Positions 8,694 through 30,347 of a DNA stretch of 64,000 bases are shown here, piece after piece (the stretch's first letter is position 1; each line of letters begins with the position of its first letter). The notes beneath the pieces were generated by a model, which was not told the origin of the DNA, made no database searches, and saw only the letters and a list, made by a program, of their open reading frames with translations. This stretch comes from Hoeflea sp. (lineage in GTDB: Bacteria; Pseudomonadota; Alphaproteobacteria; Rhizobiales; Rhizobiaceae). Position numbers and translations under genes: made by a program. The stretch is taken from assembly GCF_002733955.1 (NCBI RefSeq), contig NZ_NVXQ01000004.1, positions 186,001 through 250,000 of the forward strand. Reading direction: 5' to 3'.

Positions 8694-9254
8694 ATGGGCG
8701 AGCACAACCCCTTTGGCGACATGCATGCAACCACCATCATCACCGTGCGCAAGGGCGCGCAAGTAGTCATGGCCGGTGACGGCCAGGTCAGCCTTGGCCA
8801 GACGGTGATGAAAGGCAATGCGCGCAAGGTGCGCCGGATTGGCAAGGACAATGACGTGATTGCCGGATTCGCCGGTGCAACAGCCGACGCGTTCACGCTT
8901 CTGGAACGGCTTGAAGCCAAGCTCGAACAATATCCCGGACAGCTGACCCGGGCGGCGGTGGAACTGGCCAAGGACTGGCGCACCGACCGGTACCTGAGAA
9001 AACTCGAGGCGATGATGCTGGTGGCGGACAAGACCGTGACGCTGGCGATCACCGGCAATGGCGACGTGCTGGAACCCGAGCACGGCACCATGGCGATCGG
9101 ATCGGGTGGCAATTATGCCTTTGCCGCTGCCCGCGCGCTGATGGACAGCGACAAGTCGGCGGAAGAAGTTGCCCGGCGGGCGATGGAAATTGCCGGTGAC
9201 ATCTGTGTCTACACCAATTCCAATATCGTGATCGAAACCCTTGAACTCGATTGA
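8694..9254 (+). CDS. hslV: ATP-dependent protease HslVU, peptidase subunit
   Basis: 186-residue Ntn-hydrolase (proteasome beta-type) subunit that forms the dodecameric core of HslVU. As in other rhizobia there is a 12-residue propeptide-like extension before the catalytic Thr ([12 protein letters not shown], Thr13), so N-terminal processing would be needed. [20 protein letters not shown] is the conserved next block (in part) and AIGSGGNYA is near the end. The ATG at 8694 is chosen by homology and by the AGGAAAGG site. It overlaps the next gene by 14 bases if that starts at TTG. Confidence 0.96.
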
Positions 9255-9804
9255 CGCCGAGCGGATCGGCTTCCGGCCGGTCGCTCCGGATGATTACCCG
9301 CTTCTTGAAAGCTGGCTCGACAGCCCGCATTGGCGCGAGTGGTGGGGCGAACCTGCCACAGAGCTGGGTTACATCCGCGACATGGTCGAGGGCAGAGACA
9401 CGACCCGGCCATTTCTGTTTCTGCTGGACGGCGCGCCCGCCGGCTATATCCAGGTCTGGACCATCGCCGATCAACTCAAGGAACCGTGGCTGAGTGAAGC
9501 CCCGTGGATGACCGAGGTTCCGGCTGACAGTGTCGGCGTCGATATCTCCATCGGTGCCGCAGCACAGCTGTCACGCGGGCTGGGCTCGACAGTGGTGCGG
9601 CTTTTTGCCGAGCGGCTTAGAGCCAAAGGCCACGCAACGATCCTGATCGATCCGTCTATCACCAATCTCCGGGCGATTCGCGCCTATGAGAAGGCCGGCT
9701 TCAGAAAATGGATTGTTTCACGTGAATCATCGGGCCAGGGTGAAACCCTGATCATGAAGTTTGCGCCCGACGGCGCGTCGGATGAAAGCAAGGTGGCCGA
9801 ATGA
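9241..9804 (+). CDS. GNAT acetyltransferase, AAC(6')-like
   Basis: About 187 residues. Acetyl-CoA-dependent N-acetyltransferase of the GNAT fold, resembling aminoglycoside 6'-N-acetyltransferase/IucB-type proteins: [15 protein letters not shown] at the N-terminus, the tryptophan-rich WREWWGEP, a motif A region around [13 protein letters not shown], and [13 protein letters not shown] (motif B) near the C-terminus. The substrate is unknown and resistance should not be assumed. No ATG is available near the N-terminus; TTG at 9241, inside the hslV end, is the likely start. A parS-like site lies in codons for VSRES (9714-9729). The stop overlaps the next gene (ATGA). Confidence 0.82.
9714..9729. 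other. parS: parS-like ParB-binding site inside the GNAT gene
   Basis: TGTTTCACGTGAATCA matches the canonical TGTTTCACGTGAAACA at 15 of 16 positions. It lies about 11.6 kb from the putative oriC, on the opposite side from parAB. The bases are read as V-S-R-E-S in the GNAT frame. Confidence 0.85.
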
Positions 9805-24606: not shown

Positions 24607-25932
24607 ATGCGGGATACCATTTTCGCCCTCTCCTCGGGCGCGCCACCTGCGGGTGTGGCCGTTATCCGGATATCGGGACCGGGGGTTCGATTCGGACTCG
24701 AAACAGTTTCAGGATCGGTTCCTCCACCAAGGCAAGCAGTCCTTTCGCGACTTCATGACGCGCAGGGAATGGAACTTGATCATGGATTGGTCCTGTTTTT
24801 CCCTGGCCCGAAATCGTTTACCGGAGAGGATGTCGCCGAGCTGCAGATTCATGGCGGCCGCGCATCGGTGTCCGCGGTGATCGACTGTCTTTCCCGACTG
24901 CCCGGCTATCGGCTGGCGGAACCCGGCGAGTATACCAAGCGGGCGTTTGAGAATGGGCGCATGGACCTCACCGCTGTCGAAGGCCTGTCCGATCTGATAC
25001 GGGCCGCGACAGAGGCACAGCGGCGCCAGGCTCTGGGCCAGACAGACGGCAGACTTCGGGATATTTATGAGGACTGGGCACGGCGTATCACCCACGCACG
25101 GGCGATGGTGGAAGCGGAGCTCGACTTTTCTGATGAAGAGGACATCCCGGGCTCAGTAACAGACCGTATTTGGCCGGCCATGGAGCAACTCCGGTCTGAA
25201 CTCTCGGACCACCTGTTGCTGGCAAGAAACGGTGAAATTGTCCGCGATGGATTTCGAGTTGCCCTGATCGGCGCGCCGAATGCCGGCAAGTCCTCTCTGC
25301 TGAATGCGTTGGCGCAGCGGGATGTTGCGATTGTCTCCGATGTACCCGGAACCACCAGAGACATTGTTGAAGTGCGTCTGGATATTGGCGGGCACCTTGT
25401 TTTGCTGCAGGATACGGCGGGATTGCGAGACTCCGATGACGATTTGGAGCAAGAAGGCATTCGCCGAAGCAAGGATGCGGCTTTGAATGCTGACCTGGTG
25501 CTGGAACTTCGTGATTCGCGGATGCTGGCCGAAGGCCGATTTGCAACATCGTTGATCGACACGGAATCGCTCATTGTCTGGACGAAATCGGATTTGCTGA
25601 ACGATTCGACTTTTCACACAACGGATGGGGAAATACCGGTATCCAGCAAGACCGGCGCTGGTCTTGATCATCTTCTGAACAGGATTGGGCTATATGTATC
25701 GGAGCTCCAGCCTGGTAGCGGGGATGTCCTTCCGACCCGGACGCGTCATGTCCAATATTTGCGTGAAAGTCTCGAAGAGCTAGAGACTGCCATTTCCAGC
25801 ACCATGCTTCCGATCGAACTGCGATCTGAGTATTTACGCAATGCAGCTGTTGCGCTTGGCAAAATTACCGGGCGCGTTGATGTGGAAGATCTACTGGGCG
25901 TGATTTTCTCAGAGTTCTGTGTCGGGAAATGA
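24607..25932 (+). CDS. mnmE: tRNA modification GTPase MnmE (TrmE)
   Basis: 441 residues. With MnmG it makes (carboxymethyl)aminomethyl-uridine at the tRNA wobble position. Order: THF-binding domain (MRDTIFALSSGAPPAGVAVIRISG), helical domain, then the G domain from about residue 215 with GAPNAGKSSLLN (G1), GTTRD (G2), DTAG (G3), TKSD (G4) and SSKTG (G5). The C-terminal FCVGK matches the C-(I/L/V)-G-K signature carrying the essential Cys. The stop codon TGA is also the first three bases of a parS site. Confidence 0.96.
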   Translation: MRDTIFALSSGAPPAGVAVIRISGPGVRFGLETVSGSVPPPRQAVLSRLHDAQGMELDHGLVLFFPGPKSFTGEDVAELQIHGGRASVSAVIDCLSRLPGYRLAEPGEYTKRAFENGRMDLTAVEGLSDLIRAATEAQRRQALGQTDGRLRDIYEDWARRITHARAMVEAELDFSDEEDIPGSVTDRIWPAMEQLRSELSDHLLLARNGEIVRDGFRVALIGAPNAGKSSLLNALAQRDVAIVSDVPGTTRDIVEVRLDIGGHLVLLQDTAGLRDSDDDLEQEGIRRSKDAALNADLVLELRDSRMLAEGRFATSLIDTESLIVWTKSDLLNDSTFHTTDGEIPVSSKTGAGLDHLLNRIGLYVSELQPGSGDVLPTRTRHVQYLRESLEELETAISSTMLPIELRSEYLRNAAVALGKITGRVDVEDLLGVIFSEFCVGK

Positions 25933-25945
25933 TTCACGTGAAACA
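25930..25945. other. parS: parS site overlapping the mnmE stop
   Basis: TGATTCACGTGAAACA, one mismatch (position 3) from the canonical 16-mer. It begins on the mnmE TGA. Confidence 0.85.
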
Positions 25946-25967: not shown

Positions 25968-25983
25968 TGATTCACGTGAAACA
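25968..25983. other. parS: parS site in the mnmE-mnmG gap
   Basis: TGATTCACGTGAAACA, identical to the site 38 bases upstream, so the two lie nearly on the same face of the helix (3.6 turns). Confidence 0.85.
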
Positions 25984-26023: not shown

Positions 26024-26039
26024 CGTTTCACGTGAAACA
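26024..26039. other. parS: parS site just upstream of mnmG
   Basis: CGTTTCACGTGAAACA; the 14-base core GTTTCACGTGAAAC is a perfect palindrome and only the outermost base differs from the consensus. It ends 53 bases before the mnmG ATG, so ParB here could affect mnmG transcription. Confidence 0.9.
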
Positions 26040-26092: not shown

Positions 26093-27973
26093 ATGATGAA
26101 ATACGATGTGGTTGTAATCGGTGGGGGACATGCCGGCAGTGAAGCCGCAGCAGCCTCTGCACGAATTGGCGTACGGACTGCGCTCGTGACCCACAAGTTC
26201 GAGACCATTGGCACCATGTCCTGCAATCCCGCAATTGGAGGCTTGGGCAAAGGCCATCTGGTGCGCGAAATAGATTCCATGGATGGGTTGATGGGCCGGG
26301 CAGCCGATCAATCCGGCATTCAATTCCGCATGCTCAATCGTCGCAAAGGTCCGGCCGTATGGGGGCCAAGGACCCAAGCGGACCGCAAGCTTTACAAGCA
26401 GGCCATCCAGAGCTTCCTCAAGGCAATCCCCAATCTGGATATCATTGAAGCAGAAGCAGATGATCTGACGCTTGCGGGCGATCTACTGACCGGTGTCCTG
26501 CTGAAAGATGGTCGGCTGGTAGAGACCTCTGCAGTGGTCTTGACTACGGGGACCTTTTTGCGGGGCCTCATTCATATTGGCGATCGGAAGATCCCGGCTG
26601 GACGGATGAACGAAGAGCCTTCATTGGGTCTGTCCGCAACGCTTGAGCGCGCCGGGTTTCAGCTCGGACGTCTGAAGACCGGTACTCCTGCGCGGCTCGA
26701 TGGCGACACCATCAACTGGGATCTGGTCGAGTGGCAAGAAGCTGATGCCGAGCCCATCCCTTTCTCGTTCATGACGGACAAGATCAAGGTTCGACAGATC
26801 CGCTGTGGAATCACCAGAACCACGGAACGTACGCACCAGATCATCCAGGACAATATCCATCAATCAGCGATGTATTCTGGTCAGATTGAAGGTGTCGGTC
26901 CCCGCTATTGCCCTTCCATTGAAGACAAGATTGTGCGTTTCGGAGAACGGGACGGGCACCAGATCTTTCTCGAACCCGAGGGCCTCGATGATTCGACGGT
27001 CTATCCGAATGGAATTTCGACATCGCTGCCGGAAGACGTTCAGGATGCGTTTTTACGCACCATTCCAGGTCTCGAAAACGTCCGCATTATCCAACCTGGT
27101 TACGCGATTGAATATGATCACGTTGATCCTCGTGAATTGCGGCAGACGCTGGAAACGCGCCGTATCGGAGGCCTCTACCTGGCTGGTCAGATCAATGGCA
27201 CGACAGGCTACGAAGAAGCCGGAGCCCAGGGGCTTGTTGCGGGGCTGAATGCGGCGTTGATGGTTCAGGGCAAGGATGCATGCGTCTTCAGTCGTACCGA
27301 TTCCTATATCGGGGTCATGGTGGATGATCTGACCACCAAGGGGATCAGCGAGCCGTACCGGATGTTTACGTCCAGGGCGGAGTATCGGTTGTCACTCCGC
27401 GCGGATAACGCGGAACTGCGCCTGACGCCGAAAGCTATCGCGCTGGGTTGTGTTTCAAAAGAACGCCAGTCGGCGTTTGAGAGCTATTTCGATTCGTTGA
27501 CGAAATGTTTGGCCGATCTGTCTGAGCGTAGCCTGACACCGAGTGAAGCGTTGAAGCATGGTCTGGACCTGAACAAGGATGGCATCCGCCGGTCAGCATT
27601 TCAGTTGCTGTCCTATCCCGATATTGATGTGGATCGTATTCTCGCGATCTGGCCGGAACTCGGTCGTCATGGCCGGAAGGTCCTGGACGCCGCCGCGGTG
27701 GATGCTGTCTACGCGGTATATCTTGATCGCCAGAAACAGGAGATCGAGCAGCGGCAGCGTGAGGAGAACCGAAAGATTCCAGAGGACTTCGATTATTCCA
27801 GGCTTGCCGGGCTGTCCCATGAGTTGAAATCGAAACTTGAGAAAGTTCGGCCGCCGTCGGTGGGTCATGCAGAGCGTATCGAAGGCATGACTCCGGCCGC
27901 GATCGCCCTGCTGCTTGCGCATCTGCGCAAGTCCTCAACTGGTTACTCCAATGACAGCGTATCGGTGGTTTGA
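26093..27973 (+). CDS. mnmG: tRNA uridine-5-carboxymethylaminomethyl modification enzyme MnmG (GidA)
   Basis: 626-residue FAD/NADH enzyme, partner of MnmE. The FAD dinucleotide-fold [14 protein letters not shown] is at the N-terminus. [23 protein letters not shown] (in part) and the catalytic-Cys regions SCNPAIGG and RYCPSIEDK are present. [11 protein letters not shown] and a C-terminal helical MnmE-binding domain complete it. ATG 26093 or the adjacent ATG 26096 can serve, with CGGAGA just upstream. Its 3' end overlaps rsmG by 23 bases. Confidence 0.97.
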
Positions 27974-28610
27974 CGTGACCGGTGCAAGCGGTTTTTTCCC
28001 AGACAGCAAGTTTGTTTCACGTGAAACATGGGACAAGCTGCGGATCTACAGCGACCTGGTGCGCAAATGGCAGGCTTCGATCAATCTGATTTCGCCGAAG
28101 ACGCTTCCGGAGCTTTGGGAACGGCATGTTCTTGACAGTCTGCAACTTTTCCGTCTGCAGCCAACACCGCTGACATGGGTGGACATGGGCAGCGGCGCCG
28201 GTTTTCCGGGCCTGGTGACCGGCATTTGCCTTGCCGAAACAGGTCAGGGCTGGGTGCATCTGGTGGAAAGCAACAACAAGAAGGCGGCGTTTCTGCGCCA
28301 GGTCATACTTGAAACCGGCGCGCGAGCCAGTGTTCATCCGATGCGAATCGAGGCTGCCGCGGAAAAACTGGACAGTCTGAATGCGATCTCCGCCCGGGCG
28401 CTGGCGTCCCTGCCGGATCTGCTGGATTACAGCTCCCTGTTTCTGGAAAAAAACCCGTCGCTTCAAATCTGGCTCCACAAAGGCTTGGATTACCGGGAAG
28501 AAGTGCGATCAGCGCGTGACCTTTGGGGTTTCGATCTGGTAGAACATCAAAGTCTGGCGCAGGATGGATCGGCAATCCTGGAGATCAGCAATCTTTCCAA
28601 GCGAAACTAA
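27951..28610 (+). CDS. rsmG: 16S rRNA (guanine527-N7)-methyltransferase RsmG (GidB)
   Basis: 219 residues. SAM-dependent methyltransferase acting on 16S G527; loss gives low-level streptomycin resistance. The SAM motif [13 protein letters not shown] is at about residues 73-85, followed by [16 protein letters not shown] and [13 protein letters not shown]. The N-terminal [14 protein letters not shown] contains VSRET, encoded exactly by a perfect parS site. ATG 27951 gives the expected length; an earlier in-frame start at 27915 overlaps mnmG further. Confidence 0.95.
28013..28028. other. parS: Perfect parS site inside rsmG
   Basis: TGTTTCACGTGAAACA, an exact 16-bp palindrome identical to the canonical bacterial parS. 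It lies in codons 21-26 of rsmG, 600 bases upstream of parA and 6.6 kb from the putative oriC. Confidence 0.97.
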
Positions 28611-28627: not shown

Positions 28628-29422
28628 ATGCACCATTCGAAGAACCGGATCATCACCATCGCCAACCAGAAAGGCGGCGTGGGCAAGACCACCACCGCCA
28701 TCAACCTTGCAACTGCCCTGGCGGCGATTGGCGAGGAAGTGTTGATCGTTGACATCGACCCGCAGGGCAATGCCAGCACCGGGCTGGGCATTGACCGCAA
28801 GGATCGCGGCGTGTCGGCCTATGATCTGCTGACGCAGAACGCGACGGTGTCAGAGACCGTGATGCAGACGGCTGTGCCGCATCTCAGCATCATTCCATCG
28901 ACGATGGATCTGCTCGGCGTCGAGATGGAAATTTCCGGCTTGCCGGACCGGGTCTACAAGCTCAAGAAGGCGCTGCAGGCCGAAGATGCCAAGCATTATG
29001 ACTATGTGCTGATTGACTGTCCGCCGTCGCTCAACCTTTTGACCATGAACGCAATGGCCGCCGCGCATTCGATTCTCGTGCCGCTGCAATGCGAGTTCTT
29101 TGCGCTCGAGGGTCTGAGCCAGCTGCTGGAAACGGTTGGCCAGGTGCGTGATTCGCTAAACCCGACGCTCGACATTCAAGGCATCGTGATGACGATGTAT
29201 GATGCGCGCAACAATCTTGCGCTTCAGGTGGTCGAGGATGTCCGCTCTCATCTGGGCGACAAGGTTTACAGGACTCTCATTCCGCGCAATGTCAGGGTTT
29301 CCGAGGCACCTTCCTACGGAAAGCCGGCGATCCTGTATGATCTGAAATGCGCCGGCAGCCAGGCCTATCTGCAGCTGGCATCCGAGGTTATTCAACGCGA
29401 ACGCAATCGTAAGGCGGCCTGA
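28628..29422 (+). CDS. parA: Chromosome-partitioning ATPase ParA (Soj)
   Basis: 264 residues. Walker-type ATPase that binds DNA non-specifically in its ATP form and moves ParB-parS complexes. The deviant Walker A KGGVGKTTTAIN is at about 14-25, A' is in VDIDPQGNAS, and Walker B is in VLIDCPPSLNLL. The short N-terminus before Walker A is typical of chromosomal type Ia/Soj-like proteins without a regulatory HTH. ATG 28628 lies 17 bases after rsmG, inferring an mnmG-rsmG-parA-parB transcript. Confidence 0.97.
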   Translation: MHHSKNRIITIANQKGGVGKTTTAINLATALAAIGEEVLIVDIDPQGNASTGLGIDRKDRGVSAYDLLTQNATVSETVMQTAVPHLSIIPSTMDLLGVEMEISGLPDRVYKLKKALQAEDAKHYDYVLIDCPPSLNLLTMNAMAAAHSILVPLQCEFFALEGLSQLLETVGQVRDSLNPTLDIQGIVMTMYDARNNLALQVVEDVRSHLGDKVYRTLIPRNVRVSEAPSYGKPAILYDLKCAGSQAYLQLASEVIQRERNRKAA

Positions 29423-29444: not shown

Positions 29445-30347
29445 ATGGGTATGACAATGTCGGACGATGTATCAAGAAAACGCCTCGGGCGAGGCTTGGC
29501 TGCTCTCATTGGCGAGATCGATCAACCGGTGCAACCCCAGTCGAAGCCGAGTGTTTCGGCGGATCGAACCGTTCCGATCGAACATGTGAGTCGGAACCCG
29601 CGCAATCCTCGCAGGACGTTCGATCCGACTGACCTCGAGGATCTGTCGAATTCGATCCGCCAGCATGGCATCGTGCAGCCGGTGATGGTCCGCAGTTCCG
29701 GTGAAGACCGGTACGAAATTATTGCCGGTGAACGCCGCTGGCGCGCCGCGCAGATGGCAGGTCTGGTGGAAATTCCTGTCATCGTGCGTGATGTCGACGA
29801 CCGCACGGCCCTGGAAATAGCGATCGTTGAGAACGTTCAGCGTGCTGATCTCAATGCGCTTGAAGAGGCGCAGGGCTATGAGCAGCTGATCGCGCAGTAT
29901 GGTTACACCCAGAACGATCTTGGTGAAGTGATCGGCAAGAGCCGCAGTCACGTGGCCAATTCGCTGCGTCTGCTGAAACTGCCTGACGAAGTCCGGACCA
30001 TGCTGGCGGAAGGTGCGCTGTCAGCCGGTCATGCGCGCGCCATCGTGTCGACTTCCGATCCTGTTCGCCTGGCCCGGAAAATTGCCGGCGAGGGGCTTTC
30101 GGTGCGTGATGCCGAGAAACTGGCTCAGAAGGATGCGGACCAGGGCAGCAGACCGGATGGGCTGGAAACCAAGTCGAACCGCTCTGACCAGAAGGATGCC
30201 GACACGGTAGCGCTGGAGAGAAGCCTGTCCGACGTGCTGGGGCTCAAGGTGCAATTGGCCCACAAGGGGCAAGGCGGCCAACTCAGGATCGACTATAAGT
30301 CACTTGAGCAACTCGATGAGCTTTGCCGGCTTCTTGGCGAGAAATAG
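29445..30347 (+). CDS. parB: Chromosome-partitioning protein ParB (Spo0J)
   Basis: 300 residues. Site-specific DNA-binding CTP-switch protein that loads at parS and spreads. The N-terminal RKRLGRGLAALIGE is the ParA-contact motif. The CTP-binding region includes NPRNPRRTF and the GERRWRAAQ (GERRxRA) box at about 87-95. The HTH segment reads NDLGEVIGKSRSHVANSLRLLKLP (in part) at about 160-185. A linker and C-terminal dimerisation domain follow. Alternative ATGs at 29451 and 29457 are in frame. Confidence 0.97.
   Translation: MGMTMSDDVSRKRLGRGLAALIGEIDQPVQPQSKPSVSADRTVPIEHVSRNPRNPRRTFDPTDLEDLSNSIRQHGIVQPVMVRSSGEDRYEIIAGERRWRAAQMAGLVEIPVIVRDVDDRTALEIAIVENVQRADLNALEEAQGYEQLIAQYGYTQNDLGEVIGKSRSHVANSLRLLKLPDEVRTMLAEGALSAGHARAIVSTSDPVRLARKIAGEGLSVRDAEKLAQKDADQGSRPDGLETKSNRSDQKDADTVALERSLSDVLGLKVQLAHKGQGGQLRIDYKSLEQLDELCRLLGEK

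Follow-up and report, generated by a model that had tools for sequence, protein, structure and literature searches.

A putative parS centromere best explains the VSRET peptide of alphaproteobacterial RsmG

Does the peptide VSRET, which stands near the N-terminus of RsmG in many Alphaproteobacteria, belong to the enzyme or to the DNA that encodes it? The question is raised by a 64,000-nucleotide stretch of a Hoeflea sp. contig (hereafter the window), in which the 16-bp parS palindrome TGTTTCACGTGAAACA lies on the forward strand at 28013–28028, inside rsmG. The initial annotation had described it as an exact canonical palindrome in codons 21–26 of rsmG, read VSRET, and our analysis bore this out. 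The match has 0 mismatches, runs from the third base of codon 21 through codon 26, and is read (TT)T GTT TCA CGT GAA ACA, that is (F)VSRET, with VSRET as residues 22–26. Judging from sequence comparisons, we hold it highly probable that 28013–28028 is a ParB-binding centromere site (parS) of the chromosomal ParABS system lying in the rsmG frame, and that selection acts on its 14-bp core and not on the peptide.

The rsmG (gidB) gene, for a 16S rRNA methyltransferase of 219 aa, occupies 27951–28610 on the forward strand (ATG at 27951, TAA at 28610). Its product was identified by TIGR00138 rsmG_gidB (109.7 bits; cut-off, 99.5) and PF02527 (113.7; cut-off, 27). It overlaps the end of its upstream neighbour mnmG (gidA; 26093–27973, forward; TIGR00136, 811 bits), and mnmE is found at 24607–25932, also forward. 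Both partition genes follow rsmG directly on the same chromosome and strand: parA (28628–29422; 264 aa; AAA_31, 210 bits), a partition ATPase so named because it lies between rsmG and parB, and parB (29445–30347; 300 aa; TIGR00180, 188.7 bits; ParB_N, HTH_ParB, and ParB_C), for the centromere-binding protein.

Seven matches to parS with three mismatches or fewer were found in the window, against a mean of 0.10 in 100 shuffles. In the whole assembly of 4,861,307 bases, TGTTTCACGTGAAACA has one exact copy, the rsmG site. The assembly holds four sites with one mismatch, all within the window and all on the forward strand, and two sites with two mismatches outside it. Three of the four cluster within 2.1 kb of the rsmG site: 25930–25945, whose first three bases TGA are the mnmE stop codon; 25968–25983, in the mnmE/mnmG intergenic region; and 26024–26039, in the same region, where the mismatch affects the outermost base only. 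The 14-bp core is intact in two copies in this genome, the rsmG site and 26025–26038. The string of the 25930–25945 site, TGATTCACGTGAAACA, also stands in a Bartonella tribocorum locus (L174), directly after the apparent end of mnmE (FCVGK, TAA). The fourth site, 9714–9729, lies in a gene for a GNAT acetyltransferase (9241–9804) and is read in the VSRE frame (VSRES). No site with three mismatches or fewer was present in the 17 other GNAT matches in stretches from the order, only three of which are at least 50% identical, and the 9714 site may be a lineage-specific gain. Strings coding for VSRET matched at two other places in the genome, with other codons, in a pattern search that covered TCN and CGN codons (AGY and AGR lay outside the pattern) irrespective of frame. 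A parS survey by Livny et al. in 2007 reportedly found the same consensus site near the origin.

Three sets of rsmG genes were compared. Set one held 146 genes of the class, identified as Alphaproteobacteria by the labels of the named relatives, plus that of the window (147); it was drawn from 150 listed places among matches in 351 of 385 genomes, minus G021, G153, G162, and G340, and was ranked by the Pfam model, whose start lies after the parS site. Set two combined 80 named loci (the best 80 of 565) with 29 loci from the order, the window's own locus being dropped; the named loci are skewed in favour of the query, and the query alignment contains VSRET. For set three, 70 genomes were taken from the 107 with a match outside the class, and another 20 came from the family and class. 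The combined set of 346 genes, minus 4 with duplicate last 450 bases, gave 342 unique rsmG genes. Expected codon counts were taken from the codon usage of the same loci (set one) or the same genes (combined set). A match with at most two mismatches was counted as a site unless stated otherwise; the location count in the 80 named loci used at most one.

The statement in the initial annotation that many alphaproteobacterial RsmG proteins carry VSRET near the N-terminus held in set one, where the peptide occurs somewhere in 97 of 147 genes and a site stands at the homologous position 22 in 94 of 147. Synonymous variation in VSRET relative to other codons, which had been named beforehand as the test able to refute the idea, was far lower: the 110 VSRET occurrences in these 97 genes are spelled GTT TCA CGT GAA in 108 cases, against 1.33 expected. 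Each codon contributes (observed/expected: GTT 110/36.9, TCA 108/18.8, CGT 109/23.4, GAA 110/65.2, and ACA 96/27.2). Pairwise codon identity at codons 22–26 was 1.8–5.0 times the expectation, while the median ratio in 144 other rsmG columns was 1.03, with a maximum of 2.9 at codon 185. The same spelling was found in 101 of 102 VSRET in set two, and in 234 of 238 in the 342 unique genes (2.9 expected). It was kept in 31 of 32 VSRET from set-one loci above 60% G+C. More variation was seen at the last base of the Thr codon, a synonymous position that is also the outermost base of parS (ACA 185, ACG 31, ACC 15, and ACT 7 among the 238). The parS site in rsmG is therefore conserved at the DNA level beyond coding need.

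Four genes of the combined set code VSRET otherwise (L036, L088, L195, and L312), so the peptide can outlive the site. In one of them, L195, labelled Bradyrhizobium sp. SRL28, the DNA site is lost and VSRET is retained with the spelling GTTTCGCGCGAGACG. The other two Bradyrhizobium-labelled loci (L204 and L220) are absent from these exceptions.

One of the reading frames of parS contains a stop (TGT TTC ACG TGA), which leaves VSRET and xFHVK(H/Q) as the two possible readings of an intact intragenic parS. Both readings were found. Of 279 sites in the combined set, the VSRET frame accounts for 257 and the FHVK frame for 21, while 1 lies in the frame where the stop is normally found. On this sequence evidence, VSRET is best understood as a translated centromere.

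The site is also not fixed to one position. In set one, 111 of 147 genes have at least one site with no more than two mismatches, with 136 sites in total. In a joint alignment of 237 genes, the sites of class genes stand at codon 22 (109), at about 118 (17), and in the FHVK frame at several places of the N-terminus (12); rarer positions are about 47 (3), about 70 (3), and 194–196 (4 at 196), with one or two cases at each other place, among them 128, 136–137, and 164–165. Outside the class, 15 of 70 genes have a site, solely at 195–219, the C-terminus. Two genes (L011 and L012) contain three sites each. On a FastTree phylogeny built without the site columns and without a support test, the minimum number of changes, gains and losses undivided, was at least 28 for position 22 (109 carriers), at least 9 for position 118 (17), and at least 8 for the C-terminal sites (20).

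The case for the enzyme would be that VSRET is a functional motif of RsmG under selection on the protein, with the parS spelling secondary. Among 36 aligned RsmG sequences, V, R, and E never vary and S and T hardly do, a conservation that is partly the result of selection, since the 35 relatives came from 79 of the 80 named loci, those matching VSRE(T/S) or VPRET. The retention of VSRET in L195 with other codons also favours this explanation, as does the place of the peptide at the start of helix 1 in an AlphaFold model (block mean pLDDT 95). This model (36 sequences; numbered without Met1) has a mean pLDDT of 89.9, a low-confidence tail at residues 1–16, and a first helix at 23–43. VSRET corresponds to model residues 21–25, with Ser before the helix and Arg-Glu-Thr making up its first turn. 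A VSRET at codon 47 would likewise begin a helix (48–68); position 118 or so falls at the end of helix 108–121, and the sites at 215–219 lie at the C-terminal end. By the model, VSRET is perhaps tolerated in RsmG as a helix start behind a disordered tail.

Against selection on the protein, codon choice is fixed far above expectation, and the pentapeptide recurs at unrelated positions of RsmG, the C-terminus included. The Pfam and NCBIfam models both start after it, PF02527 at query residue 27 (its match covers residues 27–202 of the query without Met1) and TIGR00138 at residue 30. Further, peptide and site are lost together. Of the 342 genes, 218 have both, 27 have the site without VSRET, 2 have VSRET without the site, and 95 have neither; VSRET was found anywhere in only 2 of the 97 genes that lack a site. 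The residues are thus not kept where the DNA site is absent, as a protein motif would be. The 53 class genes with no site at position 22 have L, I, or V at residue 22 in 41 cases and S at residue 23 in 25, but R, E, and T are not preferred at the residues that follow.

Changes within the site give the same picture. Where the 14-bp core has changed in the 94 genes with a site at position 22, the protein is altered in 8 cases (L006, L023, L028, L034, L035, L046, L058, and L068) and the change is silent in 2 (L036 and L088). By our own arithmetic, about 24% of the possible single changes in the core are silent, so 2 of 10 is close to expectation and protein constraint is not visible. In L023 both arms are changed to TGTTCCACGTGGAACA, by which the palindrome stays intact and VSRET becomes VPRGT. 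Symmetric arm variants of the form (T or C)GTTCCACGTGGAACA, read VPRGT or FHVEQ, were found in L023, L130, L342, L345, and L346, and may point to lineages in which the preference of ParB has shifted. The changing positions, the second frame, and the amino-acid changes that keep the palindrome point to selection at the DNA level. Together with the codon test they support the proposal of the initial annotation that the peptide is conserved as a by-product of parS, and we regard a motif selected for the enzyme as very improbable.

A binder other than ParB might account for DNA-level conservation, since CACGTG is a generic palindrome that could serve another protein (a CACGTG-binding regulator, for example) or an RNA element, and ParB is the predicted binder here. 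However, the full 16-mer equals the published parS (in Caulobacter, PMC5815017). By-eye motif alignment in Caulobacter numbering (available part of PMC7383237) showed that the window's ParB, with the motif GKSRSHVANSLRLLK...LSAGHAR, keeps the equivalents of the parS-contacting R173 and G201 and has Lys at the equivalent of 184. In the same part of that paper, Lys at position 184 is termed permissive, and Lys or Arg is given for about 28% of extant ParB.

The location of the sites also argues against another binder. In the 80 named loci, 184 sites with at most one mismatch were found, of which 84 in the mnmE/mnmG intergenic region and 77 in rsmG (counted as the last 650 bases) stand next to parAB; the rest lie in mnmG (4), downstream (5), or upstream or unassigned (14). 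The parS explanation gains further support in the class: rsmG has a ParA motif behind it in 138 of the 147 genes of set one. For the 137 class loci where such a motif lies downstream, sites with at most two mismatches had a density of 1.39 per kb within rsmG, compared with 0.33 upstream and 0.08 downstream, and many of the upstream sites fall within 150 bases of the nominal rsmG start. The 14-mer core was found in 155 of 190 class genomes, mostly in one to four copies each, while a reversed-pattern control gave 0 in all 190. Two class genomes (G005 and G074) have 13 and 14 copies. Conservation for a different protein or RNA element has, in our judgement, only a slight chance of being correct. 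The least probable explanation, close to negligible, is that nothing beyond common descent and codon bias keeps the spelling uniform. Many of the carriers have a common ancestry and are not independent, one old codon-22 site may explain most of them, and a few other columns have raised codon identity (the highest being codon 185). Against this, the median of the 144 other columns in the same genes is near unity, the VSRET codons turn up again elsewhere in the gene and beyond the class, and they persist in nearly all VSRET from the loci richest in G+C.

The rsmG site is not universal. No site with at most two mismatches was found in rsmG in 36 of 147 class genes, 34 of which are adjoined by a ParA motif, or in 55 of 70 genes outside the class, which indicates that the rsmG site is dispensable. 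Because intact 14-bp cores are few in many class genomes, the rsmG site can nevertheless be a large share of the best sites, and in the genome of the window it is one of two. One locus among the Rhizobiales matches (L152) is labelled Marinicella sp. W31, and its RsmG is 55% identical to that of the window. Marinicella is the name of a gammaproteobacterial genus, and the record is possibly mislabelled.

Taking 28013–28028 as a ParB-binding centromere, ParB, encoded 1.4 kb downstream, would load on the rsmG parS and then slide out onto neighbouring DNA. Together with the three near-perfect mnmE/mnmG intergenic sites, the rsmG parS would contribute to segregating the origin. The literature describes ParB as loading, sliding in a CTP-dependent manner, and acting in segregation (PMC7053999 and PMC8367383), and from the sequence we infer ParB occupancy and a segregation function in this organism.

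Intragenic parS is already known. In Pseudomonas aeruginosa PAO1, nine of ten parS are most likely intragenic and were mutated without altering the coding sequence; these lie in various genes of one species, however, and the available part of the report does not treat a class-wide conserved peptide (PMC4368675). Caulobacter crescentus likewise has an alphaproteobacterial parS cluster near the origin, with ParB binding determined by ChIP-seq and IDAP-seq, and according to the authors these parS lie within essential or costly genes, hence no ablation (available part of PMC5815017). That part differs from our analysis in that encoded peptides and codon conservation are not treated and the word gidB does not occur in its text. 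In the open-licence PMC papers that we searched, no report of VSRET as a parS footprint in RsmG was found, and neither the word VSRET nor parS, rsmG, and ParB together gave a match. The available parts of PMC5583512 and PMC7022226 contained nothing on parS reading frames.

A second peak of synonymous conservation was observed in class genes at rsmG codons 184–194, with the pattern GAATTGACC...GC...AAA...TGG..ATG and the peptide ELTxAxxKxWxM (for example in L128 and L071). It corresponds to an element resembling a promoter, GAATTGACC...TGGANNATG, which lies in the 3′ part of the gene at a median of 105 bases before the stop. TTGAC occurs at codons 185–186 in 53 of 147 genes, against 28 of 174 other Leu-Thr pairs there, and GARTTGAC was found within the last 150 bases of rsmG in 20 of the 80 named loci. 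Its sequence resembles a sigma-70-type promoter that would serve parAB from within rsmG, and ELTxAxxKxWxM is perhaps likewise a by-product of DNA.

This raises a tentative extension, namely that rsmG is a preferred centromere host in which parS arose repeatedly because ParB, spreading from a site close upstream of parAB over the promoter-like element, damps parAB transcription. The concentration of sites in rsmG, at several positions, is in its favour. However, the window's own rsmG lacks the element, GARTTGAC is limited to a quarter of the named loci, and shared ancestry together with a tolerant N-terminus accounts for much of the pattern, so we consider such feedback rather unlikely. If it were true, the position of the centromere would be part of a feedback loop, and that loop would have shaped the evolution of RsmG, down to the point where its first helix begins.

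Our analysis indicates that VSRET, a conserved-looking stretch of RsmG present in 97 of 147 class genes, most plausibly reflects a centromere and not a part of the enzyme. Such residues should not be taken as catalytic or structural. The results suggest that VSRET, or xFHVK/FHVE, may serve as a simple signature for intragenic parS in protein databases. The gene would carry a two-layer code, in which silent recoding would separate the centromere from the enzyme.
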